Of a stretch of 45,179 nucleotides of DNA, positions 3,450 through 41,636 are shown one piece after another. Position numbers and translations under genes: made by a program. The DNA comes from Beijerinckiaceae bacterium. Lineage in GTDB: Bacteria > Pseudomonadota > Alphaproteobacteria > Rhizobiales > Beijerinckiaceae. The notes under the pieces are model-generated. The model ran no database searches and had not been told where the DNA came from. It worked only from the letters and a program-made list of their open reading frames with translations. How positions within the stretch are numbered: the first letter of the stretch is position 1; each line of letters begins with the position of its first letter. The stretch lies in NCBI GenBank assembly GCA_009773635.1, contig WSYC01000022.1, forward strand, positions 1-45,179, written 5' to 3'.

Positions 3450-4592
3450 TCAGGCGGCGCGCGTTTGATGGCGCGCCTGTGCGAGGTGCGCCATCGCTTC
3501 AAGCACCGAGCGCACGGTAATCGGCTTGCGCACCGCCGCCTCCACAAGCGCGTGGACAGGGTGGCTCGCGTCGATCTCGTCCGCGGAGACAACGAGCACT
3601 TTCGGCCGGATTGCCGAGGGCATCGCGTGGATCTCTGCGATCAGCTCCATGCCATTCCCGCCGGGCATGTTGAGATCGGTCAGCACGAATTCCGGCTGCT
3701 GCGCGGCGATCATCCGCAGCGCTTGCGGCACGCTCGCAGCCTCAAGGCACCGATGGCCAACCGACCCCAGAATCGTCCGCAGCACGAGGCGCGAGGCGGG
3801 GTGATCGTCGACGATCAGGCAATTGGCGAGGTCAGCATGGCTCTCATCGCGCCACTCGAACGTGAAGGTTGCTCCGGCTCCGGCTGCCGAAGGACCTCCG
3901 ATCAAGGTGCCGCCATGCGCCGCCACCAGCCGCCCGGCGATACTCAGCCCGAGCCCGGCACCGCCAGCGCGTCCATCAATCCTGCCGCCGTCGCGGATCA
4001 ACCGCGCAGCATCCTCGGTGCTGATGCCCGGCCCTTCGTCCGTGATCCGGAACCGGAGCCGCCCGGCCGTTGAGCGGGTAACGTCAAGCGTCACCGTGCC
4101 CGCTGTCATCAGGCGAAAGGCGTTATCGATCAGATTTTCGAGCACCTGCCGCAGTGGGCCGGCATCAACCTGAGCCTTCAGGATGCCGTGATCGGCAACT
4201 TCCAGCCGGAATTGCACGGATCGGGCGTTTGCACGGGCCTGGCAGGCCGTTTCCAACGACCCGAGAAGTGTTTCGAGATCGGAACAGCAGGGGCTCGATG
4301 CAACGCCGGCCGCATCAGCGGTATCAGGATTTCCGGGGGCATCGAGAACGCGATCCGCAAGCCCGCGCAGATGCGCAACCGACGCCCTGAGCGCGCGGAC
4401 CACCCGCGTCTGCCCGGCATCGAGCGGGCTCGCCTCCAGCATCTCGACCATGGCCTCGATGCCGCCGAGAGGCGCGCGGAGCTCGTGCGCAACTTCTGCA
4501 ATTTCCTGGGATGACAATGTCTTGATGCCTGGCATGGGCCTGTAATCTCGATCTTCGAAATGAGCATCGGAAGGCCGGGGCATAACGAGCAA
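3450..4592 (-). CDS. Soluble hybrid histidine kinase / response regulator
   Basis: A 380-residue protein with no membrane segment and no recognisable sensory domain. Order: HisKA dimerisation helix with phospho-acceptor H36 in a VAHELRAPLGG motif; HATPase_c domain with N-box (LENLIDNAFR), DEGPGI and GAGLGLSI boxes; then a receiver domain with the acidic pair in LIVDDH, phospho-acceptor D306 in LTDLNMPG and a conserved late lysine. It should autophosphorylate and pass phosphate to its own receiver. No output domain and no regulator gene are adjacent, so the downstream partner is unknown. The longest frame starts at TTG 4592, with AAGGGA upstream; an ATG three codons later (4583) is equally possible. 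The gene is convergent with the M23 gene and divergent from the permease gene. Confidence 0.88.
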   Translation of the reverse strand: MLVMPRPSDAHFEDRDYRPMPGIKTLSSQEIAEVAHELRAPLGGIEAMVEMLEASPLDAGQTRVVRALRASVAHLRGLADRVLDAPGNPDTADAAGVASSPCCSDLETLLGSLETACQARANARSVQFRLEVADHGILKAQVDAGPLRQVLENLIDNAFRLMTAGTVTLDVTRSTAGRLRFRITDEGPGISTEDAARLIRDGGRIDGRAGGAGLGLSIAGRLVAAHGGTLIGGPSAAGAGATFTFEWRDESHADLANCLIVDDHPASRLVLRTILGSVGHRCLEAASVPQALRMIAAQQPEFVLTDLNMPGGNGMELIAEIHAMPSAIRPKVLVVSADEIDASHPVHALVEAAVRKPITVRSVLEAMAHLAQARHQTRAA

Positions 4593-4642
4593 CCCCGTCC
4601 CTTCGATCGCCTCATGAGCTTAACGCAGGCGTCTTAAGCCTT

Positions 4643-4669
4643 GCCTAAATCGACTGGCCTAAATCGACT
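4643..4669. repeat. 13-bp tandem repeat in divergent intergenic region
   Basis: GCCTAAATCGACT occurs twice (4643-4655 and 4657-4669) with one base between. It lies in the 161-bp gap between the divergent kinase and permease genes, so it could be a duplicated regulator site or simply a slippage duplication. Confidence 0.7.
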
Positions 4670-4753
4670 TGCCGGATCAGCGGTTTCGCGCGAAGACACT
4701 GGAAAAATCATCCTCCTTCCTCGAGCGCCACCGCGCCGAAGCGAGACCGCCCC

Positions 4754-30587: not shown

Positions 30588-30672
30588 GCCCCTGTGGCGG
30601 AATTGGTAGACGCGACCGACTCAAAATCGGTTTCCGCAAGGAGTGCTGGTTCGATTCCGGCCAGGGGCACCA
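30588..30672 (+). tRNA. tRNA-Leu(CAA)
   Basis: The acceptor stem GCCCCTG/CAGGGGC, an anticodon stem ACCGA/TCGGT around the loop CTCAAAA (anticodon CAA), a long variable arm and an encoded CCA define a class II leucine tRNA of 85 nt. Its 3' end is the integration target of the adjacent island. A possible -35 TTGACC lies at 30514-30519 but no good -10 was found. Confidence 0.96.
30655..30672 (+). repeat. attL: 3' end of tRNA-Leu
   Basis: TTCCGGCCAGGGGCACCA is the T-arm 3' side, acceptor and CCA of the tRNA. A near-copy lies at 35598-35614. The element's left end abuts it. Confidence 0.85.
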
Positions 30673-30795
30673 CATCACCTTCCGTAGACGCCCGAGAGCG
30701 TCCGCAAGTGTCTGAAAAATCAAAGTAAATCAACGTTTATGTGTCCGAAGGCGTCTTCTGGCGTCCGTTTTCGTGCGCTTGAAGCCAGCGAATTT

Positions 30796-30856
30796 GTTGG
30801 TATCTTTGTTGGTATCGCTGAAAATACCAACAGCCGGATACCAACAGGATACCAAC
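30796..30856. promoter_or_regulatory. Five GTTGGTAT repeats (integrase arm-type / autoregulatory sites)
   Basis: GTTGGTAT occurs at 30796-30803 and 30808-30815, and its complement ATACCAAC at 30824-30831, 30838-30845 and 30849-30856; the last touches the integrase ATG. The inner two can form a hairpin with an 8-nt loop. The layout fits arm-type integrase binding sites that also cover the int promoter. Confidence 0.75.
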
Positions 30857-31230
30857 ATGGCGCTCACCGACGTTGCGATTCGAGCCTTGAAGCCAGCCGA
30901 TAAAGTTCAGAAAATTTCTGACGGTGAAGGGCTGCAATTGTGGGTAATGCCGGTTGGTTCGCGGCTTTGGCGCTATGCCTATCGCTACAGTGGCGAACAA
31001 AAAACGCTGGCTTTGGGCGCTTATCCTGAAATCACTTTGGCCGAAGCCCGCAAGAAGCGCGACGAAGCACGGGCCTTGTTGGTATCCGGCGTCGATCCCG
31101 GCCAACAGCGCAAGCTCGAAAAGATCACGAAGGCGATATCCGACGCGGCAACATTCGATGCCGTCGCCGAAGAATACCTTGCCAAGAAAATGCGCGAAGG
31201 GATGGCGGCAAGCACGGTGATCCGCCATGA
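30857..31230 (+). pseudogene. Truncated P4-type tyrosine recombinase (integrase), N-terminal part only
   Basis: From ATG 30857, with AGGA 8 nt upstream, the frame encodes MALTDVAIRALKPADKVQKI...GLQLWV, then YRYSGEQKTLALGAYPEITLAEARKKRDEAR, the DUF4102/arm-binding domain of P4-like integrases, and the start of the core-binding domain (FDAVAEEYLAKKMREGM). Homology ends near 31220. The frame then runs on to 31459 through the complement of the HIRAN gene. The catalytic domain with the R-H-R-Y residues is absent. A deletion or replacement placed the HIRAN gene against the break, leaving an island that cannot excise with its own enzyme. Confidence 0.88.
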
Positions 31231-31686
31231 TCATGCCTCTTCCACTGTAAGTCGTATCATCGGATCGCCGCTCGCAAACGCGGTGAAAACCAGTTCGTCG
31301 GGCACTTCGCTTGATCGTCGGATATCCAGCATCCGCACAACTTCCGCCGTGACGCGCTCGCCACGGTCCAAGAGTCGGGCAACGGGGCTGTTGGCTTCCC
31401 TTGGAATGAACCCTAGCTTCAGCCCGTCCAGATGGACCGCAACGGCGTCCGCGTCATAGGGGTTCGCCGCTTCACGGACCAAGGCAAGCTTCGTTCCCGG
31501 CGTGATGCGCCCCAAGGCGGTTTCAAGGCCGTGGTGGTGCCCCCCGGCAATGGCAAAATCGAACAGCGTCACCGAAGGCCGCGCAACGGCTTGCCGCCCG
31601 CCGACAATCGCAAGCGCCGTCGCCAAAAGCGCCCGGTTCACATCGCGGCGGGAAAAGGTGCCCGGTGCGGATTTTCCTTCGATCAT
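31231..31686 (-). CDS. HIRAN-domain protein with Tat-like N-terminus
   Basis: A 151-residue protein. The N-terminal 38 residues hold a twin arginine in FSRRDVNRALLATALAIVGG followed by QAVARP, resembling a Tat signal peptide. The rest is a HIRAN domain: FDFAIAGGHHHG, LALVREAANPYDADAVAVH, LKLGFIPREANSPVARLLDRG. HIRAN domains of HLTF/Rad5 bind 3' single-strand DNA ends; in bacteria they occur alone or fused to nucleases and helicases. Export would be odd for a DNA-end binder, so either the signal is spurious or the domain has another ligand. The gene is divergent from the restriction-modification gene across 101 bp and abuts the truncated integrase. Confidence 0.82.
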   Translation of the reverse strand: MIEGKSAPGTFSRRDVNRALLATALAIVGGRQAVARPSVTLFDFAIAGGHHHGLETALGRITPGTKLALVREAANPYDADAVAVHLDGLKLGFIPREANSPVARLLDRGERVTAEVVRMLDIRRSSEVPDELVFTAFASGDPMIRLTVEEA

Positions 31687-31787
31687 CTGTTATCCCAAGC
31701 GGCGGCTTCCCGGCGTTGCTCCAATATGCTCTTCTTCAGAATATGACTGCAATCCGCGCTCATTTGATTCGTGTATAGAAACAATCG

Positions 31788-34700
31788 ATGCAAACGATCA
31801 TTTCTTCCATCATCGATTACGTATCAGAGACGCGGCAACTCGACTCGCAACCGTCTTCGACGGAAAATACATTCTATCCGGCAATCAAGAACCTGATTTC
31901 GGCGATCCTGAAGGAGCGCCGCCTTCCGTTTGAAGTCCGCGTCAACACGTCCGAAGCCAAGGGCAAGGCGCGGGATATGCCCGATTTCGTTCTTGGCGAC
32001 GACAAGATGTTTGTCGGCGTCTATGGCGAAGTGAAGCGCCCGAACGCTTCGCTTGAAGACCTTGCCGTTTCGACCGAACAGAACGACCAAATCGGGCGCT
32101 ATCTCGCGCAAACCGGCGTCGTGCTGATTTCGAACGTGCGCGGCTTCGGCTTGCTCGCTTGCGTTGCTGGCTATGATCGCCCGGCAATTGGCACGGTTCC
32201 GCCTGACAAGCGCACTCTGATTAAAACCGTCGATGTTTGGTCCGCCGTCACGGGCGCGGGGCCGAAGGCCAAGGCCGATGAAGCCGCCGTCGCCGAACTG
32301 TTAGAAATTTTCGAACGGTCCGTCACCGACTACGCCCCGCTTGCCGATCCTGCCAGCTTGGCGAAGGTGCTCGCAAGGCAAGCACGCGATGCGAAAGATC
32401 AGCTTCCCGAAGACCTGAAGGCAGTCAAACCGCTGTTGGATGATTATCGCCAAGCGCTTGGCCTGTCCTTCAATATTGACGATGAAAAAGGCGATCGGTT
32501 CTTCCGGTCTTCATTGGTGCAAACGGCGTTCTATTCGCTCTTCGCCGCATGGGTGTTGTGGGATAAATCCAAGGAAGAGGAACGGCTAAAGGCGGCCGCT
32601 GAAAGTCGCCCGGTGCCCGTCGAAGCACCATTCGATATCGACGATGCCCATAGCTATCTTCCGATCCCGTTTCTTGATGCGCTGCTTCACGATATACGCC
32701 ACCCAAAGCGGCTGAAAGCGCTTGGGCTTGAAGATCATCTTTCCCGCGCCATCGCCACGCTGAATCGCGTCAACCGTCCGCTGTTTCGCACGCGGATGAC
32801 CTTCCCGACGATCGACGAACAGACGACGGCGGCGGCGATAACCTATTTCTATGAACCCTTCTTGGAAGCCTTCGATCCGAAGCTTCGCGATGATTTGGGC
32901 GTCTGGTACACGCCGCCCGAAATCGTGCGCTATCAGGTGCGCCGGGTTCACCACATTCTGAAAACCGAACTCAACCGCCCGCGCGGCCTTGCCGATCCCG
33001 ATGTTGTGGTTCTGGACCCCTGTTGCGGCACGGGTGCCTATCTCTTGGAAGTGGCGCGCTGCATTGCCGACGAAGCCAAGGCGGACGGCGACGAATCCGC
33101 CATCGGCTTAGAACTCTCGCGCGCTTTCCATGAACGCGTGATCGGGTTCGAAATCCTCACCGCCCCGTTCGCGGTCGCGCAACTGCAACTCTATCTCTTG
33201 CTCGATAGTCTTGGCGCGAAACCGGACCCTGAACGGCGTCTGACGATCTTCCTCACCAACTCGCTATCCGGCTGGCGAGACAGCGGCGACGTGAAGTTGA
33301 CTTTCCCCGAAATGCGCGAGGAATTCGACGCGTCGCAGGAAGTGAAGCGCAAGGCGAAGGTAATCGTCGTCATTGGCAACCCGCCATACGATCGCTTCGC
33401 GGGCGCGGCGCAATCCGAAGAATCGGAGTTGGTCGCGCATTACAAAGGCATTCAACTTGTCGATGACGTCGATTCCAAAACCAAACAGGTGAAGCGCGAC
33501 GAATTCGGCAATCCGAAACGCAAGCAGCGTGGGCAAAGCGCACTTTATCTCGATTACGGCGTTCGCAAGCAGCTTTTGGACGATCTTTATATTCGCTTCT
33601 TCCGCATGGCCGAAGAACGCATCGGCGAAGCAGCCGAATTCGGCATCGTCTCGTTCATCTCGAATTCGTCGTATTTGACCGGGCGTTCGCACCCGATCAT
33701 GCGCAATTCGCTGTTGTCGAATTTCCACTGCGCTTGGATCGACAATTTGAACGGCGACAAATACCGCACGGGCAAGCTCATTCCAGAAGGCTTGCGCGGC
33801 GCTGGCACTTCGGACCAAAGCGCCTTCAGCACCGAAATGGATGCACGCGGCATTCAGCCGGGAACGGCGATCATCACGCTTGTGAAGCGGGCCGAAGCCA
33901 AGACCGCGCCGATATCGACGGCAGTTCACTATCGCGACTTTTGGGGCTTGGCGAAGGATAAGCGGGCTGAACTGATTGCATCATTGCCCACTGGCGTGGG
34001 GAATGCGTCGAAGCCCTATGATACCATCGCACCGACACGCGAAAATCGCTGGCGCTTGTCGCCCACAATGATGGAAGGCGGCTTTGAAGCTTGGCCTGCC
34101 TTGGATGAATTGTTCCCGACGTCCTATCAGGGCGTGAACCACAATCGCGGCATCGATGGCGGCATTATCGGATACACGCGGCACGAAATTGAACAACGCC
34201 TTGGTGGCTACTTTGCCGCGAGTTCGTTCGCCGTAGCCATGACACAATACCCGGAAGTTGCCGCCGAACGCGCACGGTATGAGCCAGAAGAAACTTGGAC
34301 GAAACTAAAGGCAGAAGGACACTATCAAGCCCAAGCTGTGAAAGCTTTTTTGGCGTTCCCACTTGATCAGCGGCATATTTATTATGTCGATCGCTACAAA
34401 TGGTTGAACGAAGCGCGACCGGATTTTGCCGCGAATATTGATGGGAACGAATTTTTTCTTACTGTTCCGGAACCACGAAAAGAATCGGAAACAAGGCCGG
34501 TTTTTTCAACCGCATTGGCAAACCTTCACGTTCACGAACGGGGTTCCGTCGTGTTCCCGCGTGAAGTTCAGGAAGGTTTTTCCGCCGAACGTTATGCCAA
34601 TCTTGGCGAAGCCGTCTGGCGTGTTTTGGGCGTTCATTTCGGGCTTACCGAACCCACGGAAACAGACCGTCGCTTCACGTTCTTGCGCGATAGCGATGTT

Positions 34701-35384
34701 GCCCGCGCCTTTGTGGGCAAGCTGTTCCGCGTCGGCTTTGCGATCCTTCACGCCCCGGCCTATCAGGCCGAACACAAGAGCGCGCTTTCAGCCGATTGGG
34801 CGCATCTTCCCATTCCGAAAGACGCTGAACTTGTCGAAAGGCTTGTTGCCAAGGGCGAACAGGTGACACGCCTGCTTGATGCCAACCGCGATGCCCGCGA
34901 CGTGATCGAAGCCGTTCTTGGCCGTGAACGCGCGGCCCTGCTTGGCCCGCTCAAACGCACGGACGGCGGCAATCTTCGTCCCGACGATCTCAAAATCAAC
35001 ATCACCTATTGGGGCGGCGGCAAGGGCCGTTGGAAGCCCCGGCCCTTTGCGATCGACGATGCCCCGGTTGAAGCATGGGGCGCGGACGTGTGGGGCGAAC
35101 GCACGGGCGATCTCTATATCAACGACGATGCCTTCTTCGCCCATGTGCCCGAAGCTGTCTGGACCTACCAGCTTGGCGGCTATCCCGTGCTCAAGAAATG
35201 GCTTGGCTACCGTCAAGCCGATCGCCGCGACGGCAACCCGCTCACCGACGACGAACGCAAATGGTTCCGCCAAGTCATTCAACGCATCGCGGCACTTCTC
35301 GCGCTTGGGGTTGAACTGGACGCCCTCTATCAGCGAGCGGCGGCGGATGCCTTCACCGCGTCAGAATTGGGGATTGAGCGGTGA
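31788..35384 (+). CDS. Single-chain restriction-modification enzyme: nuclease, N6-adenine methyltransferase, specificity domain (type IIG / ISP-like)
   Basis: A 1,198-residue protein. The N-terminal PD-(D/E)xK nuclease has D66 in MPDFVLG and E81-x-K83 in YGEVKRP. A helical linker (about 130-380) follows. The gamma-class N6-adenine methyltransferase has motif I DPCCGTGAYLL (D410) and motif IV NPPY (N531). The C-terminal part resembles the type ISP specificity domain (QRHIYYVDRYKWL; GYPVLKKWLGYR...PLTDDERKWFRQVIQRIAALLAL). No Walker A/B or helicase motifs lie between nuclease and methylase, unlike LlaGI-type ISP enzymes of about 1,570 residues. It should therefore cut and methylate from one chain without translocation. 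No Shine-Dalgarno precedes ATG 31788; TATAGA at 31774-31779 may be a -10 giving a leaderless or nearly leaderless mRNA. Sequence specificity cannot be read. Confidence 0.9.
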   Translation: MQTIISSIIDYVSETRQLDSQPSSTENTFYPAIKNLISAILKERRLPFEVRVNTSEAKGKARDMPDFVLGDDKMFVGVYGEVKRPNASLEDLAVSTEQNDQIGRYLAQTGVVLISNVRGFGLLACVAGYDRPAIGTVPPDKRTLIKTVDVWSAVTGAGPKAKADEAAVAELLEIFERSVTDYAPLADPASLAKVLARQARDAKDQLPEDLKAVKPLLDDYRQALGLSFNIDDEKGDRFFRSSLVQTAFYSLFAAWVLWDKSKEEERLKAAAESRPVPVEAPFDIDDAHSYLPIPFLDALLHDIRHPKRLKALGLEDHLSRAIATLNRVNRPLFRTRMTFPTIDEQTTAAAITYFYEPFLEAFDPKLRDDLGVWYTPPEIVRYQVRRVHHILKTELNRPRGLADPDVVVLDPCCGTGAYLLEVARCIADEAKADGDESAIGLELSRAFHERVIGFEILTAPFAVAQLQLYLLLDSLGAKPDPERRLTIFLTNSLSGWRDSGDVKLTFPEMREEFDASQEVKRKAKVIVVIGNPPYDRFAGAAQSEESELVAHYKGIQLVDDVDSKTKQVKRDEFGNPKRKQRGQSALYLDYGVRKQLLDDLYIRFFRMAEERIGEAAEFGIVSFISNSSYLTGRSHPIMRNSLLSNFHCAWIDNLNGDKYRTGKLIPEGLRGAGTSDQSAFSTEMDARGIQPGTAIITLVKRAEAKTAPISTAVHYRDFWGLAKDKRAELIASLPTGVGNASKPYDTIAPTRENRWRLSPTMMEGGFEAWPALDELFPTSYQGVNHNRGIDGGIIGYTRHEIEQRLGGYFAASSFAVAMTQYPEVAAERARYEPEETWTKLKAEGHYQAQAVKAFLAFPLDQRHIYYVDRYKWLNEARPDFAANIDGNEFFLTVPEPRKESETRPVFSTALANLHVHERGSVVFPREVQEGFSAERYANLGEAVWRVLGVHFGLTEPTETDRRFTFLRDSDVARAFVGKLFRVGFAILHAPAYQAEHKSALSADWAHLPIPKDAELVERLVAKGEQVTRLLDANRDARDVIEAVLGRERAALLGPLKRTDGGNLRPDDLKINITYWGGGKGRWKPRPFAIDDAPVEAWGADVWGERTGDLYINDDAFFAHVPEAVWTYQLGGYPVLKKWLGYRQADRRDGNPLTDDERKWFRQVIQRIAALLALGVELDALYQRAAADAFTASELGIER

Positions 35385-35519
35385 AGCGTTGCAAAGCTGC
35401 AATTGCCAATCAGGGCGAATAGCATGGCGAGGCGATCAGGCGCGGGCGCTTCTGTGTCGTCGGGTGCGAGCTATCAAGCGCGCATAGTCCGCCCACATCC
35501 GCCCCTAGCCGACAAAAAT

Positions 35520-35539
35520 GTTGGTCTTTTTGCTGGTCT
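35520..35539. repeat. Degenerate right-arm copy of the integrase repeats
   Basis: GTTGGTCT (35520-35527) and GCTGGTCT (35532-35539) are spaced 12 bp start to start, exactly as the first two GTTGGTAT units on the left (30796 and 30808). They lie 59 bp inside attR and probably form the other arm-type integrase site. Confidence 0.65.
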
Positions 35540-35597
35540 TTTGAAAACCTCATTCTTTTTAAATCAGCAATATCAATTAGATAAATTGCTTATTTGG

Positions 35598-35614
35598 TTC
35601 CGGCCAGGGCACCA
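35598..35614. repeat. attR: displaced copy of the tRNA-Leu 3' end
   Basis: TTCCGGCCAGGGCACCA equals the tRNA 3' end except for one missing G in the GGGG run. It marks the right boundary of the island. Confidence 0.82.
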
Positions 35615-35857
35615 ACCGTTTTTCGAAATCATATCAATTACTTAATGCGAAAAAATTGTCTCAAAACTTCCGAGGCTTGGCGGAGATGTCCTCACAAAGC
35701 TCAGACCACACTTCATCCTTGCGGGTTGAGTTGAGACTATATCCTTTAACGAGCAATCCGATTTTCCTCTGACAGTGCTCTCGAGCCTGTCAGAACGAGC
35801 CGGCCATCTGAGCCGAACGCACCGCTCTTGACTCGGGGCAGTGGTTTCATGGTATCA

Positions 35858-35894: not shown

Positions 35895-36638
35895 ATGTCA
35901 AAAGCCATGCGTGCTTCCATTCATAGCCACCCCGCTGACTTTGTGCTGCCATCTGAAGGGTTGCATGAGTTCTACGCGGCCACTCACATGGACGCGGCCT
36001 GTCTGACTGGTGCTGCCCTGATGCTGGGGCAAGCCGTCAAGCCTGTCCCTTATCTCTGGGTCCGGCATGGCGATGGCGACCGCGAGGCGGGGAGCCCCTG
36101 CCCGGCAGGTTTGAGGGAACTGAACACCGATCCTGCACAGGCCATTCTGGTTCTGTCGCGCGATCCGGCATCAGCGCTTCAGGCCGCGCTGGAAGGCGCG
36201 CGTACGCCCCGTCTCGGCGCGGTGATCGTGGAGCTTTGGGGGGCGGCACCTGCTTATGACCTCACCGCGAGTCGCCGCCTTGCGCTGGCGGCAAGGGCCT
36301 CATCTGTATCGGTGCTGGTCGCGCGTGTGGCCGCTTCTCCCACGCCTAGCGCGGCGGAAACGCGCTGGCGGGTGCGCGCCGCTCCTTCACGCGCGCTGGC
36401 AGCCAACGCGCCCGGCAACCCCGCCTTCGAGATGACCCTGCTGCGCGCCCGCAACGGGCAGGAAGGCCTATGCTATTGTGTGGAGTGGGATCGTGATGCC
36501 CATAAACTCGTCTCCCGTTTTCTCCCCGGCATCGACGATGCCCTCATCCAGCCCGCGCCGCTATCTGGCACTGTGGTTCCCGTTTCTTTCAACCGACCGG
36601 GCGTGCCGCCAGATGAACCCCGCAGGCAGGCGGGATGA
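35895..36638 (+). CDS. imuA: SOS mutagenesis accessory protein ImuA
   Basis: A 247-residue RecA/SulA-like protein that acts with ImuB and DnaE2 in translesion mutagenesis after DNA damage. Recognisable stretches are FVLPSEGLHEFYA, GAALMLGQ, DPAQAILVLSRDPASALQAALEGARTPR, LTASRRLALAARASSVSVLV and the C-terminal LLRARNGQ...CVEWDRDAHK. The Walker A motif is poorly conserved, as in other alphaproteobacterial ImuA. ATG 35895 lies just downstream of the LexA box. Its last 143 bp overlap the start of imuB in another frame. Confidence 0.9.
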   Translation: MSKAMRASIHSHPADFVLPSEGLHEFYAATHMDAACLTGAALMLGQAVKPVPYLWVRHGDGDREAGSPCPAGLRELNTDPAQAILVLSRDPASALQAALEGARTPRLGAVIVELWGAAPAYDLTASRRLALAARASSVSVLVARVAASPTPSAAETRWRVRAAPSRALAANAPGNPAFEMTLLRARNGQEGLCYCVEWDRDAHKLVSRFLPGIDDALIQPAPLSGTVVPVSFNRPGVPPDEPRRQAG

Positions 36639-38202
36639 ACGCCCCTTTGTGCTGGTGGAGAAGGATCGCGGCGCCCTCCGGATCGCCGCCCTTGATGGCA
36701 CCGCCGCGGGGATGGGCCTGCGCATCGGCATGGCGCTCACCGAGGCGCGGGCGCTGGTGCCGGATATCGCCACGGCCGAGGCCTGCCCGGAGGCTGATGC
36801 TTCTCTCCTGCATGCCTCCGCCGCGGCCTGCGAAATATTCACGCCGCTGGTCGCGTTGCGGGGCGAGGATGGGCTCCTGCTCGACATCACCGGCTGCGCG
36901 CATCTCTTTGGTGGCGAGGCAGGGCTCGGAGCCGGGGCGCGCCGACCTCTTCATCGGATGGGACTGACAACACAGGCCGCCATCGCCGGCACGCCGGAGG
37001 CGGCCTGGGCTTTAGCGCGGCATCGGCGGAGCACCATCGCCATGCCCGGTGAAGAAGAGACGCTGGCGCGGGCCCTGCCGATCACGGCGCTCGATCAGGA
37101 AAGCGGCACAACGCTGGCCCTGAGCCGAGCGGGGTTTCGGACGTTGGGCGATCTCGCAGACCGGCCTTCGCCATTGCTCTCCGCCCGCTTTGGCGAGGGG
37201 CTGGTGGCGGCACTCCGACGTATTCTCGGACGCGAGGATATTCGCATCACCCCCTTGCGCGCCCCGCCGGAGGTGATGGCGGAAAAACATTTTCCCGAAC
37301 CGCTCTCGGCCATGGAAAGCCTGCTCGGCGCGCTGGAAAAACTCGCGGGCGACATCATGGCCATGCTGGAAAAGCGCGGTGCAGGCGGGTGCGCCTTCGA
37401 GGCAAGTTTCTTCCGCGCCGACGGCATGGTGCGGCGGATCACGTTGGAGACCGCGCAGGGCACGCGCGAGGTTCCGCGCCTGATGCGTCTGATCCGGCTC
37501 AGGATCGAGGTGCTCGCGGATCCGCTTGATCCCGGCTTCGGGTTTGATGCCATCCGCCTTGCTGTCACACGGAGCGAACCGCTTCACGCCGCGCAACAAA
37601 CTCTCGCTGGAGGACAGGATGCGCAGGATGAAGCAAGGAGCGTGGCCGACCTCGTAGACCGGCTGGTGGCGCGCTTCGGGCGCGGCTGCGTGCGGCGTTT
37701 CGTGGCGGCGGACACGCATGATCCCGTGCTGGCGGGCGGCACGGTGCCTTATCTTTCGGATGTAATTTCCGCGCCATGGCATGGAGCATTTTCGAGCGAA
37801 GTGGATATCGGTTCGCGTGAAGAAAATGCGACAAAGCAAAAAGGCAGAGAAAATTTCCGATCCCATCAGATTGGAAATTTTTCTGCGCCGGAGCCGGGGC
37901 ATCCGCCCCTGCGTCCAATCACGCTTTTCACGCATCCCCAATGGATCGAGGTGATGGCCGAAGTGCCGGATAGTCCGCCTCTGCGCTTCCGCTGGCGGCA
38001 CGTGCTGCATCAGGTGACACGCGCCGAGGGGCCGGAGCGCATCGCACCGGAATGGTGGCGCGACGCTTCGCCCGCGCCCGCCACGCGCGATTATTACCGC
38101 GTGGAGGATGCCAACGGGCATCGTTTCTGGATTTTCCGCGAGGGGCTTTACGAGGATTCCAACGCGCGCCCGCGCTGGTTTCTGCACGGACTTTTCGCAT
38201 GA
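36496..38202 (+). CDS. imuB: ImuB, Y-family polymerase-like protein with an in-frame repeat insertion
   Basis: A 568-residue catalytically dead Y-family polymerase relative. It begins its fold at RRYLALWFPFLSTDR, where active polymerases carry the first catalytic aspartates, and it acts as a hub linking ImuA, DnaE2 and the sliding clamp. Conserved parts follow up to RFGRGCVRRFVAADTHDP and, after an insertion, PPLRPITLFTHPQWIEV and FRWRHVLHQVTRAEGPERIAPEWW. About 34 codons at 37785-37886 are an interspersed palindromic repeat read in frame. ATG 36496 follows GGAGTGGG; GTG 36478 and ATG 36538 are alternatives. The stop overlaps the dnaE2 start as ATGA. Confidence 0.92.
   Translation: MPINSSPVFSPASTMPSSSPRRYLALWFPFLSTDRACRQMNPAGRRDERPFVLVEKDRGALRIAALDGTAAGMGLRIGMALTEARALVPDIATAEACPEADASLLHASAAACEIFTPLVALRGEDGLLLDITGCAHLFGGEAGLGAGARRPLHRMGLTTQAAIAGTPEAAWALARHRRSTIAMPGEEETLARALPITALDQESGTTLALSRAGFRTLGDLADRPSPLLSARFGEGLVAALRRILGREDIRITPLRAPPEVMAEKHFPEPLSAMESLLGALEKLAGDIMAMLEKRGAGGCAFEASFFRADGMVRRITLETAQGTREVPRLMRLIRLRIEVLADPLDPGFGFDAIRLAVTRSEPLHAAQQTLAGGQDAQDEARSVADLVDRLVARFGRGCVRRFVAADTHDPVLAGGTVPYLSDVISAPWHGAFSSEVDIGSREENATKQKGRENFRSHQIGNFSAPEPGHPPLRPITLFTHPQWIEVMAEVPDSPPLRFRWRHVLHQVTRAEGPERIAPEWWRDASPAPATRDYYRVEDANGHRFWIFREGLYEDSNARPRWFLHGLFA
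37785..37886. repeat. Interspersed palindromic repeat inserted in frame within imuB
   Basis: About 102 bp with lower GC than the gene around it. It holds two inverted repeats: GCATTTTC (37786-37793) with GAAAATGC (37822-37829), and GAAAATTTCC (37849-37858) with GGAAATTTTC-like (37873-37883). The left part, TTTTCGAGCGAAGTGGATAT then CGGTTCGCGTGAAGAAAATG, matches by memory a repeat common between genes in Rhizobiales. Confidence 0.75.
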
Positions 38203-41200
38203 AAGGCCCGCTCCTTTCTCTGACGCCTGCCTATGCCGAACTCGCCTCAGCGACCAATTTCTCCTTTCTGCGTGGGGCTTCGCCGGCGGCTGATCTTGTC
38301 CTCACCAGCCTGCTGCTGGGGCATTCGGGGCTCGGTATCGCGGACCGTAATACTGTGGCCGGGGTTGTGCGGGCCTGGGGCGCGCTCAGGGAATTGCGCG
38401 AAGGCGGGGTGTTGCCGCTAGTGAAGCAGCGCGAAGGTTCCGGGCCGGGCGAATATCGTTTCGAGATCAATGCGCTCTCGCCTGACGAGGAACAGGCCGA
38501 AGTCTTTCGGAGGGAGGTTCAGGAAAGGGCGCAAGATTTCAGGCTCGTTACCGGTGCGCGGCTCGCCTTCGCCGATGGCACACCCGAGATCATCGCCTAT
38601 CCCGAAAACCGGGTGGGCTGGGGCCGGCTCTGCCGGTTGCTCACGACAGGCAACCGGCGTGCGAAAAAGGGAGAATGCCACCTTACGTTGGAGGACTTGC
38701 TCAGCAATGCGCGCGATCTCCTGCTGATCGTGATGCCGGGGCGCGACACGGCCTCGCTTCCCGCGATGCTCCCGCGCCTTGGCGAAGCTGCGCCCGGCTC
38801 CGTGTGGCTTGGTGCAACCATGCCGAGACGCGGCGATGACCGGCGCAGGCTCGCGGGGCTGAAAACAATCGCGGAAGACGCGGGCATTCCGCTGCTGGCC
38901 ACCAATGACGTGCTCTATGCTGCTCCCGGCCAGCGCGATGTACAGGATATTCTCACCTGCATCCGCGAGGGGCGCACGCTGGAAAATGCGGGCCGCCTGT
39001 TGGAGGCCAATGCCGAGCGCCATCTCAAGCACGCCGGCGAGATGGCGCGCTTGTTCGCGGATGCCCCGGAGGCCATCACCGAGACGGAAAACCTCCTCGC
39101 GCGCATCAGTTTCGATCTTGGCCAGTTGACCTATGAATACCCCGATGAGCCGGTTCCGCCCGGCAAGGATGCGCAGGGCTGGCTCGAGGAGCTCACGTGG
39201 CGCCATGCCCAGATGCGCTACCCGGATGGCGTGCCCGAGAAGGTCGAGCGCCTATTGCGTCAGGAACTCGCGCTGATCGGCAAGCTCGATTACGCGCGTT
39301 ATTTCCTCACCATCCATGACATCGTGCGGGTGGCGAACGACAAGGGGATCCTGTGTCAGGGGCGCGGTTCGGCGGCCAATTCCGCCGTATGCTACGTGCT
39401 GGGCATCACCGCCGTGGACCCCGCCGAAGGCAATCTGCTCTTCGCGCGGTTCATCTCCGAGGAGCGCAAGGAGCCGCCGGATATCGATGTCGACTTCGAA
39501 CACGAGCGACGTGAGGAGATTATCCAGCACATTTATACCCGCTACGGCCGCACACGCGCCGGACTGGCCGCTACGGTGATCCATTATCGCCCTAAAAGCG
39601 CGATCCGCGATGTCGGCAAGGTGCTGGGCCTCTCCGAGGATATCACCGCCGCGCTCTCGGGCACGCAATGGGGAAGCTGGGGCTCCGATATCACCCGCGC
39701 TCAAGTGAAGCAGGCGGGGCTTGATCCGGAGAACTCTTCAATCGCCCGCGCGGTGCGCTTTGCCAGACGGTTGCTGGGGTTTCCGCGCCATCTCTCGCAG
39801 CATGTCGGCGGCTTCGTGCTGACGCGCGGGCGGCTCGACGAACTGGTGCCGGTCGGCAATGCGGCGATGGCGGAGCGCACCTTCATCGAGTGGGACAAGG
39901 ACGATATCGACACGCTGAAATTGATGAAGGTCGATGTGCTGGCGCTCGGCATGCTCACCTGCATCCGCAAGGCCTTTGAGCTGCTCAAGGATCACGAGCG
40001 ACTGGACCTTGCCCTCGCCGACGTGCCGCAGGGCGACAAGCCCACTTATGACATGCTGGCCCAAGGCGATTCCATCGGCGTGTTTCAGGTCGAAAGCCGG
40101 GCGCAGATCAACATGCTGCCGCGCCTCAAACCGAAAAAATTCTATGATCTCGTCATTCAGGTTGCGATCGTCCGCCCCGGCCCGATTCAGGGTAATATGG
40201 TGCATCCCTACCTCAGGCGGCGCTCCGGCGCGGAACCGGTAAGCTTCCCCTCGCCCGCGCCTCCGCATGATCCCGACGAGCTTCGCAGCGTGCTTGGCAA
40301 GACGCTTGGCGTGCCGCTGTTTCAGGAGCAGGCGATGCAGCTTGCCATGATCGCCGCAGAGTTCTCCGATGTGGAGGCCAACCAGTTGCGGCGCGCCATG
40401 GCGACCTTCCGCAACCTCGGCACCATCGGGCGCTTCGAGGGAATGATGGTGGAGCGCATGGTGGAGCGGGGCTATGCGCGGGAATTCGCGCAGGATTGTT
40501 TCAACCAGATCAAGGGCTTCGGCTCCTATGGCTTTCCCGAAAGCCATGCCGCAAGCTTCGCCAAGCTGGTTTACATCTCCTCCTGGCTCAAATGCCATCA
40601 TCCGGCGGTGTTCGCCTGTGCCCTGTTGAATTCTCAACCGATGGGCTTTTATGCCCCCTCGCAGATCGTTCGCGATGCGCGCGAGCATGACGTCGAGGTC
40701 CGCGCCATCGATGTGAACGAGAGCTTCTGGGACAACACCCTCGAACGCACCGCCGAAGGTGCGCTGGCCTTGCGTCTCGGCTTCCGGCAGGCCGAGGGCA
40801 TCCATGAGGTGGCGGCGCAGCGGTTGGTGGCGGCGCGGCGCAACGGTTTCGTGAGAGTGGAGGATGTGGCGCGCCGCGCGCGGCTGCATGGCCTCCCGAT
40901 GCGCGCATTGGCCGATGCGGATGCCTTCCGCTCCATCGGGCTTGATCGGCGCGCCGCGCTATGGGAGGTCAGGCGCCTGCCGGAGGATGATCCTCTCCCG
41001 CTCTTCGCCGCCATGGACGCGCAGGAACTCGGCGACGAGCCCGATGCCATGCTGCCCGGGATGTCGCTCGGCGAACATGTCGCGACCGATTACCAGACCA
41101 TGCGGCTTTCTCTCAAAGCGCACCCGATGGCCCTGCTGCGCCCGCTGTTTGCGCGGGAGGGGGCGTGCAGCGCTGCCGAGGTCAACGCCCGCGTCGATGG

Positions 41201-41636
41201 CCGTTTTACCCGCATGGCCGGGCTGGTGCTGGTCCGCCAGCGCCCCGGCAAGGGCAATGCGATTTTCATCACGCTGGAGGATGAAACCGGCATCACCAAT
41301 TGCGTGCTCTGGGCGCGCGAGTTCGAGCGCCTGCGCCGTCCGGTGATGGCCTCCAGGCTGATGCTGGTGGAGGGCCGAGTGCAACGCTCGCCGGAAGGGG
41401 TTGTCCATCTGATGGCGAGCCACGTCATCGACCGCTCGGCTGCGCTCGACCATTTGTGCGGTGCGCATAGCTCCGGCCTTGCGCTGACGAAATCGCTGTC
41501 CTCGCCGACAGATGAAAGCTTAACATCTGGTGACCCTGGCAATACCAGAGAGACCCATCACCCATCCTCTGCGCCACCACGCCACCGCCACCCGCGCGAT
41601 GCCCGCATCCTGCCCAAAAGCCGGGATTTTCATTAA
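38199..41636 (+). CDS. dnaE2: Error-prone DNA polymerase III alpha subunit DnaE2
   Basis: A 1,145-residue C-family polymerase that carries out translesion synthesis with ImuAB. An N-terminal PHP domain begins YAELASATNFSFLRGAS; the polymerase core has GRGSAANSAVCYVLGIT and the catalytic PDIDVDFEHERREE; an OB-fold region near 1,010-1,090 has GLVLVRQRPGKGNAIFITLEDETG; and the tail ends HPRDARILPKSRDFH, the DnaE2 hallmark. ATG 38199 overlaps the imuB stop by 4 bp, so translation is coupled. It belongs to the LexA-controlled operon that starts at 35895. Confidence 0.96.
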   Translation: MKGPLLSLTPAYAELASATNFSFLRGASPAADLVLTSLLLGHSGLGIADRNTVAGVVRAWGALRELREGGVLPLVKQREGSGPGEYRFEINALSPDEEQAEVFRREVQERAQDFRLVTGARLAFADGTPEIIAYPENRVGWGRLCRLLTTGNRRAKKGECHLTLEDLLSNARDLLLIVMPGRDTASLPAMLPRLGEAAPGSVWLGATMPRRGDDRRRLAGLKTIAEDAGIPLLATNDVLYAAPGQRDVQDILTCIREGRTLENAGRLLEANAERHLKHAGEMARLFADAPEAITETENLLARISFDLGQLTYEYPDEPVPPGKDAQGWLEELTWRHAQMRYPDGVPEKVERLLRQELALIGKLDYARYFLTIHDIVRVANDKGILCQGRGSAANSAVCYVLGITAVDPAEGNLLFARFISEERKEPPDIDVDFEHERREEIIQHIYTRYGRTRAGLAATVIHYRPKSAIRDVGKVLGLSEDITAALSGTQWGSWGSDITRAQVKQAGLDPENSSIARAVRFARRLLGFPRHLSQHVGGFVLTRGRLDELVPVGNAAMAERTFIEWDKDDIDTLKLMKVDVLALGMLTCIRKAFELLKDHERLDLALADVPQGDKPTYDMLAQGDSIGVFQVESRAQINMLPRLKPKKFYDLVIQVAIVRPGPIQGNMVHPYLRRRSGAEPVSFPSPAPPHDPDELRSVLGKTLGVPLFQEQAMQLAMIAAEFSDVEANQLRRAMATFRNLGTIGRFEGMMVERMVERGYAREFAQDCFNQIKGFGSYGFPESHAASFAKLVYISSWLKCHHPAVFACALLNSQPMGFYAPSQIVRDAREHDVEVRAIDVNESFWDNTLERTAEGALALRLGFRQAEGIHEVAAQRLVAARRNGFVRVEDVARRARLHGLPMRALADADAFRSIGLDRRAALWEVRRLPEDDPLPLFAAMDAQELGDEPDAMLPGMSLGEHVATDYQTMRLSLKAHPMALLRPLFAREGACSAAEVNARVDGRFTRMAGLVLVRQRPGKGNAIFITLEDETGITNCVLWAREFERLRRPVMASRLMLVEGRVQRSPEGVVHLMASHVIDRSAALDHLCGAHSSGLALTKSLSSPTDESLTSGDPGNTRETHHPSSAPPRHRHPRDARILPKSRDFH

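Follow-up and report, generated by a model that had tools for sequence, protein, structure and literature searches.

A 45,179-nucleotide stretch from a Beijerinckiaceae bacterium (contig WSYC01000022.1, hereafter the window) carries a tRNA-targeted integrative island at its tRNA-Leu (CAA) gene, and three genes lie between the island borders: a broken integrase, a gene for a small HIRAN-domain protein and an intact gene for a single-chain nuclease-methyltransferase-specificity enzyme. Our analysis indicates that this is very probably an ordinary decayed tRNA-Leu island in which the enzyme is self-contained cargo and the HIRAN gene a separate component, lying next to the enzyme incidentally. A tyrosine integrase would have inserted the island into the tRNA-Leu 3′ end, and most of the integrase gene would have been lost later; the HIRAN gene would either have come in independently or have been next to this tRNA before, and its product, predicted to be exported through the twin-arginine translocation (Tat) pathway, would have a function unrelated to that of the enzyme.

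The HIRAN and enzyme genes are divergent, with 101 base pairs (bp) between their start codons, an arrangement that a sequence-only reading of this DNA had taken as suggesting a two-gene unit, with HIRAN as a possible accessory of the enzyme and the 101 bp as a shared control region. The divergent layout and its spacing hold; the shared control region and the unit built on it do not. We collected the best 80 of 323 HIRAN relatives returned by an alignment-based scan of a genome collection, with flanks of up to 7 kb, a set in which Thiobacillus-like genomes are over-represented. An ISP-type enzyme was found near none of these 80 (five queries, 1e-3; 62 of the loci extend for 2 kb or more on each side), nor was the enzyme found in any of 19 further HIRAN loci from phylum and class samples (1e-5), two of which look the same as members of the first set by their equal coordinates (L194 as L078, L195 as L095). 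Searching from the other side, four tblastn queries and a HIRAN profile found HIRAN near 0 of 24 enzyme relatives. Of these 24 loci, 13 come from two genome samples, as distinct matches with cut-offs of 1e-30 and 1e-60, and 11 from a set of 24 plasmid records; in 22 the sequence preceding the extrapolated enzyme start is 700 bp or longer, and the profile recovered 20 of 20 positive controls. The repeated pairing in unrelated islands that would be expected of a two-gene unit was not found in the loci examined.

Genome-wide distributions were also compared. In a sample of 100 relatives, HIRAN is present in the window genome only and relatives of the enzyme in six other genomes (1e-30), and HIRAN was found in none of the 16 same-genus genomes searched. 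In a class sample of 385 genomes, HIRAN was found in the window genome and in G134 alone, the latter a genome outside the six others that carry the enzyme. Viral contigs scanned with a single HIRAN protein gave no relative. Among plasmids, tblastn with HIRAN gave four partial matches, the two inspected having no annotated restriction-modification gene in their 4-kb flanks, and blastn with the whole island matched nothing beyond fragments of the enzyme gene, in five records.

The nearest relatives of the two proteins are found apart from each other. The closest HIRAN relative (L044, 69% identical, from a Mesorhizobium-labelled metagenome-assembled genome) adjoins a tRNA-Leu(caa) in the gene order HNH-dsbB-dedA-tRNA-Leu-HIRAN, where the gene we take to be dedA has no Pfam match above the cut-off, and neither an integrase nor the enzyme was found within the 14 kb of this locus. 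Its DNA similarity to the window is limited to the coding part of HIRAN, bar two stretches of fewer than 20 bases; compared with the 69% of HIRAN, identity between L044 and the window is 79% for HNH, 41% for dedA and 35% for dsbB. The closest enzyme relative (G032, L013:10010-12127) is 86-88% identical over residues 1-493 and is cut by the contig end. Its gene begins 607 bp after a tRNA-Val, similarity to the window starts exactly at the start codon, and no HIRAN was found upstream of it. The G032 placement suggests a second tRNA island as a carrier of this enzyme.

Homology does not reach beyond the coding ends, and the 101-bp gap is therefore no conserved control region: it is conserved on neither side with respect to the nearest relatives and contains no sigma-70-like promoter match. 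Guanine-cytosine (GC) content sets the genes apart as well, with 62.5% for HIRAN, equal to that of the genome, 57.2% for the enzyme, 55.8% for the integrase and 63-64% for the flanks. Given the lack of co-occurrence, the separate next of kin, the difference in GC and a gap with neither conservation nor a promoter match, we conclude that the HIRAN-enzyme neighbourhood is incidental and not a two-gene unit, as far as the loci examined indicate.

The enzyme is the cargo that counts. Pfam matches to Type_ISP_C (9e-28) and N6_Mtase (6e-8), a PADLOC match to REase_MTase_IIG (4.8e-72) and sequence motifs support the earlier proposal of a tRNA island with a single-chain restriction-modification enzyme. 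One chain holds an N-terminal PD-(D/E)xK nuclease, assigned by motif only, an N6-adenine methyltransferase and a C-terminal specificity (target-recognition) domain, and neither a Walker A or DExH motif nor a Pfam helicase match at E 1 was found in it; neither the enzyme nor the HIRAN protein matched NCBIfam at 1e-5. Because the nuclease, methyltransferase and specificity motifs are present and helicase motifs were not found, we assign the enzyme a Type IIL/IIG layout, in common with single-chain enzymes of the DrdII and TaqII/TaqIII types. A gene of the Deinococcus wulumuqiensis plasmid pDrdII, which from the plasmid name we take to be that of the characterised DrdII, is 32.8% identical over 83% of the window enzyme. 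Type IIL/IIG enzymes such as DrdII methylate their target adenine and cut unmarked DNA. The island enzyme is an ordinary self-contained single-chain restriction-modification enzyme; by analogy with its relatives it would restrict by working alone, the methyltransferase marking the target adenine and the nuclease cutting unmarked DNA. TaqII, too, has been described as a single-chain enzyme.

A true Type ISP enzyme was considered and rejected. The methyltransferase region is homologous to those of the Type ISP enzymes LlaGI and LlaBIII, and the Type_ISP_C domain is a further point of likeness. LlaGI and LlaBIII, however, carry a helicase-like ATPase, the insertion that sets Type ISP apart (PMC4872093), and LlaBIII has 1578 amino acids against the 1198 of the window enzyme, in which no superfamily 2 helicase-like ATPase was found by the motif and Pfam searches.

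Both borders of the island are real, since attachment copies, arm-type repeats and flank alignments are present on both sides; they confirm the sequence-only reading in that a direct repeat of the tRNA-Leu 3′ end brackets about 4.9 kb with the broken integrase, HIRAN and the enzyme. The attachment-copy sequence occurs only twice in the window, searched on both strands with up to two errors allowed, at a spacing of 4.9 kb. A 21-nucleotide repeat, which may serve as integrase arm-type sites, likewise has two copies even with up to three mismatches, each just inside one island end. To the right of the second attachment copy, 45 bases align to the downstream flank of tRNA-Leu in the same-genus genomes G010 (score 17) and G009 (15), the top two of 17 sites; a score of 17 is reached by 3 of 2000 random window stretches. 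The likeness spans about 20-37 bases, and no related integrase was found at either site, on which ground we count them as empty. Immediately right of the tRNA-Leu itself, the sequence matches elements of other relatives at their left ends (best score 25, reached by 0 of 2000 random stretches).

Of the integrase, which we take to be a P4-type tyrosine integrase, only the N-terminal arm-binding domain is left. Homology to relatives of 406-445 amino acids ends at position 31225, where it reaches residue 123 of the 406-residue relative, with the end of the HIRAN gene 6 bp away, and no convincing C-terminal remnant was found anywhere in the window. Truncated as it is, the integrase adjoins the tRNA, and its longer relatives adjoin the same tRNA in other genomes: a related integrase lies next to tRNA-Leu in 5 of 20 relatives' regions (G001, G005, G006, G013 and G018), several of these 20 regions being short (3.1-7.8 kb) and G014 being without a detected tRNA-Leu. 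The tRNA-Leu gene is an integration hotspot. Neither HIRAN nor an ISP-type enzyme was found in any of the 20 regions (1e-5).

These borders bear on a possible, though unlikely, alternative in which HIRAN is a resident host gene beside tRNA-Leu, as it is in L044, and insertions and rearrangements placed the island elements around it. It would account for the integrase-free gene order of L044, for a HIRAN GC content equal to that of the genome and for integrase homology that runs out just beside the HIRAN gene. It sits less well with the positions of the two attachment copies, both outside HIRAN, with a right flank that resembles the HIRAN-less sites of G010 and G009, and with the lack of HIRAN in the 16 same-genus genomes searched. 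The identity to L044 is also far higher for HIRAN than for dedA and dsbB, though not than for HNH.

We now return to the preferred reading, of HIRAN as a separate component, and to the protein itself. HIRAN membership is clear, PF08797 scoring 43.2 bits against a gathering score of 24.7, and Pfam finds no domain other than HIRAN in it. From residue 10 the protein reads TFSRRDVNRALLATALAIVGGRQAVARP, which is twin-arginine-like, and its hydrophobic stretch has a 10-mer mean of 2.66, a layout common to L044; other relatives begin in a like manner, for example with MNKRNFLRGLLAALGAGIATGAAAQ and MSRRAFLNSLTGLIGCFALPAATQA. The twin-arginine motif, the hydrophobic stretch, an AxA-like end and a TatC encoded in the window genome are all present. 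Our calls of export signals are heuristic, combining hydropathy with inspection by eye, and a pass means a 10-mer mean of at least 1.6 before the HIRAN core, given the chosen start. By this rule 69 of the 80 relatives pass. Among the 11 that fail, at least three (L045, L069 and L101) had starts set too far downstream, and two signal-less HIRAN proteins used as a contrast score below 0. The best of five structure models (mean predicted local distance difference test 79, predicted template modelling score 0.63) places a helix at residues 13-27, then a strand-rich domain. With a twin-arginine-like signal at its start, as in most relatives, the window protein is probably periplasmic and Tat-exported, and such an N-terminus is not what one would expect of a protein that assists a restriction enzyme in the cytoplasm.

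The HIRAN core of the window protein matches by sequence the HIRAN domain of HLTF and lp_0118 (3k2y), from which the protein differs in being stand-alone and in bearing an export-like signal. In HLTF, the HIRAN domain binds DNA ends, and residues Y72 and Y93 make stacking contacts with the DNA bases (PMC4666394). We aligned the window protein with 33 of the 80 relatives and counted residues over these 34 rows. The position equivalent to Y72 is Tyr in 28, Phe in 5 and His in the window copy alone, and the position equivalent to Y93 is Tyr in 13 (the window copy included), His in 19 and Phe in 2. DNA binding by the window protein is uncertain, as its residues suggest, because the Y72 equivalent is lost and the Y93 equivalent kept. 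Should the core act like that of HLTF it would bind DNA ends; plausibly, the protein's ligands would be nucleic-acid ends, met at the inner membrane or beyond it. The HipN and HipL proteins of Hip kinase modules are also bacterial HIRAN proteins in a proposed defence or toxin-antitoxin context, with HIRAN fused to HipS-like or kinase domains (PMC8262856); the window protein is HIRAN only. Identity with the PADLOC defence protein PDC-M03B was rejected, the match being confined to the core, positions 129-208 of 245.

Instead of being tied to the enzyme locus, as the sequence-only reading had it, HIRAN is a member of a distinct family whose genes occur in other settings. A TsaB gene lies near HIRAN in 37 of the 80 loci, a housekeeping setting with GNAT and uracil-DNA glycosylase families, and a WYL regulator in 18 of them, in 14 directly upstream on the same strand at less than 450 bp. 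WYL, HIRAN and cas3 follow each other at six operon heads of clustered regularly interspaced short palindromic repeats (CRISPR) systems (L045, L078, L081, L088, L116 and L117), the HIRAN proteins there mostly having an export-like signal and the gaps from HIRAN to cas3 being 23-173 bp. NCBIfam confirms type I-C in L117 (Cas5c, Cas8c and Cas7) and type I-G in L081 (Cas3g, Csx17 and Csb1); the types of L045, L078, L088 and L116 were assigned by similarity to these two. The cas3 match in L077 is weak and distant. The phylum sample shows WYL in 8 of 18 other HIRAN loci (not adjacent in L206) and type I-C cas3 in three: L194, which looks like L078 again, L197, a further WYL-HIRAN-cas3 arrangement, and L210. 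Neighbouring families were scanned for 128 of 174 filtered open reading frames (220 unfiltered) in 19 of 22 loci selected from the 80, and the results cover 25 of 115 Pfam and 25 of 62 PADLOC families and are hence silent on absent families. No CRISPR array was found by a crude scan of eight cas-bearing loci, nor by a repeat search of six loci.

Viewed from CRISPR loci instead, HIRAN is an infrequent neighbour. Of 31 Cas8c places, 28 were taken (three contig-end pieces were left out) and 24 show cas3; a HIRAN gene is present in 2 of these 24 type I-C regions. One of the two is a longer, signal-less form (L251:2189-2971, in G814; 261 codons from stop to stop). As it stands upstream of the cas operon, two HIRAN kinds occur by type I-C loci. 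In L088 a second HIRAN-like stretch (4345-4692) lies upstream of WYL, which places WYL between two HIRAN copies. Elsewhere, on a Pelagibacterium plasmid, a HIRAN gene (L192:3902-4306) follows a manganese catalase gene by 1 bp on the same strand, and two metagenome bins labelled Bordetella parapertussis (L084 and L102), labels that look doubtful, have relatives of HIRAN predicted to be exported.

These contexts invite another explanation, which we consider rather unlikely: that the gene for exported HIRAN acts on its own in defence or DNA sensing and rides islands and defence loci in general, so that a restriction-modification neighbour reflects a defence island and not a pair. The frequency of WYL, mostly directly upstream, the six WYL-HIRAN-cas3 loci with L197 and the match of the PADLOC candidate PDC-M03B to the HIRAN core would agree with it. 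Against it stand the housekeeping TsaB context of 37 of the 80 loci, the presence of HIRAN at only 2 of 24 type I-C regions, and a PADLOC match that covers the core only. Stand-alone bacterial HIRAN proteins have already been noted (PMC4666394), so any novelty beyond that account would be limited to the export signal and the WYL/cas context; a search of open-access literature found no report of an exported or CRISPR-linked HIRAN, which is weak evidence of absence, the term in part of the search also matching surnames (Hirano). The exported family and its occasional placement in CRISPR operons are a modest lead. We speculate, and regard it as improbable, that a proteobacterial family of exported stand-alone HIRAN proteins, recruited together with WYL to the heads of some type I-C and I-G CRISPR operons, may act as an inner-membrane receptor that recognises the ends of DNA entering from phages, plasmids or transformation and primes or activates defence inside the cell, with the window protein as a diverged island-borne member.

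Several observations weigh against keeping HIRAN and the enzyme apart. Both genes lie between the attachment copies, so that co-transfer is possible, and HIRAN relatives do stand in defence loci in some genomes, as the six WYL-HIRAN-cas3 cases (6 of 80) illustrate. Some of the 24 enzyme loci are distant (24-30% identity) or partial matches. The branch of the window and L044 proteins has diverged, with a 17-residue insertion and the FQYH motif replaced, and has two known members, its partnerships being barely sampled. The export call is heuristic, and the relatives in L098 and L116 show no clear signal. Even so, a divergently transcribed defence pair of HIRAN and the enzyme, in which HIRAN would bind DNA ends and aid restriction or protect the host, is highly improbable. 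In its favour are a divergent spacing of 101 bp on a very small island, DNA-end binding by the HLTF domain (PMC4666394), HIRAN in proposed defence or toxin-antitoxin loci (PMC8262856, PMC11706625) and its mention among domains possibly emerged from restriction-modification systems and comparable mobile elements (PMC2292703); against it stand co-occurrence counts of 0/80, 0/19 and 0/24, an export-like signal, a gap without conservation and a different GC content.

The window adds a further case of a restriction enzyme carried by a tRNA island, and separating HIRAN from that enzyme prevents a false claim of an accessory. A bacterial HIRAN family with export-like signals, sometimes co-directional with WYL and cas3, makes the role of a DNA-end binder outside the cytoplasm a testable question.

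Table 1. Features of the island and its tRNA-Leu site (window coordinates), and HIRAN loci with cas3 (locus coordinates)
Feature	Position	Strand	Basis or remark
tRNA-Leu (CAA)	30588-30672	+	ARAGORN; sole tRNA gene in the 45,179-nt window
Left attachment-site copy, tRNA-Leu 3′ end, 18 bases, TTCCGGCCAGGGGCACCA	30655-30672	+	Repeat search
Left integrase arm-type repeat (putative role), TGTTGGTATCTTTGTTGGTAT	30795-30815	+	Repeat search; role as arm site predicted
Integrase remnant, N-terminal arm-binding domain only (PF13356)	30857-31234	+	Pfam and homology
HIRAN protein, 151 amino acids, N-terminal Tat-like signal	31231-31686	-	Pfam PF08797, E 3.5e-11; relatives; model
Tat-like signal segment, residues 1-37: SRRDVNR, hydrophobic stretch, AVA	31576-31686	-	Hydropathy, model, L044 alignment
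Gap between divergent start codons	31687-31787		101 bp; no conserved or promoter-like element found
Single-chain nuclease-methyltransferase-specificity enzyme, 1198 amino acids, intact, Type IIL/IIG-like	31788-35384	+	Pfam, PADLOC, motifs
PD-(D/E)xK-type nuclease motif, residues 65-83	31980-32036	+	Motif search (nuclease assigned by motif only)
Methyltransferase motif I, DPCCGTG, residues 410-416	33015-33035	+	Motif search
Methyltransferase motif IV, NPPY	33378-33389	+	Motif search
Type_ISP_C specificity domain, residues 774-1159	34107-35264	+	Pfam
Right integrase arm-type repeat (putative role), TGTTGGTCTTTTTGCTGGTCT	35519-35539	+	Repeat search; role as arm site predicted
Right attachment-site copy, tRNA-Leu 3′ end minus one base, TTCCGGCCAGGGCACCA	35598-35614	+	Repeat search
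Stretch similar to the tRNA-Leu downstream flank of G010 and G009	35615-35655	+	Alignment
WYL-HIRAN-cas3, type I-G	L045:5893-9835		
WYL-HIRAN-cas3, type I-C	L078:3099-9791		
WYL-HIRAN-cas3, type I-G	L081:5744-13011		
WYL-HIRAN-cas3, type I-C	L088:4999-12111		
WYL-HIRAN-cas3, type I-C	L116:5294-13054		
WYL-HIRAN-cas3, type I-C	L117:5862-13056		

To the right of the island, window positions 35895-41636 hold an apparent SOS mutagenesis cassette with an error-prone DNA polymerase (NCBIfam). Two of its open reading frames, with no Pfam match at 1e-5, are presumably imuA and imuB. None of the cassette genes was found in the tRNA-Leu regions of the 20 relatives, a result that points to a rearrangement of the right flank shortly past about position 35650.

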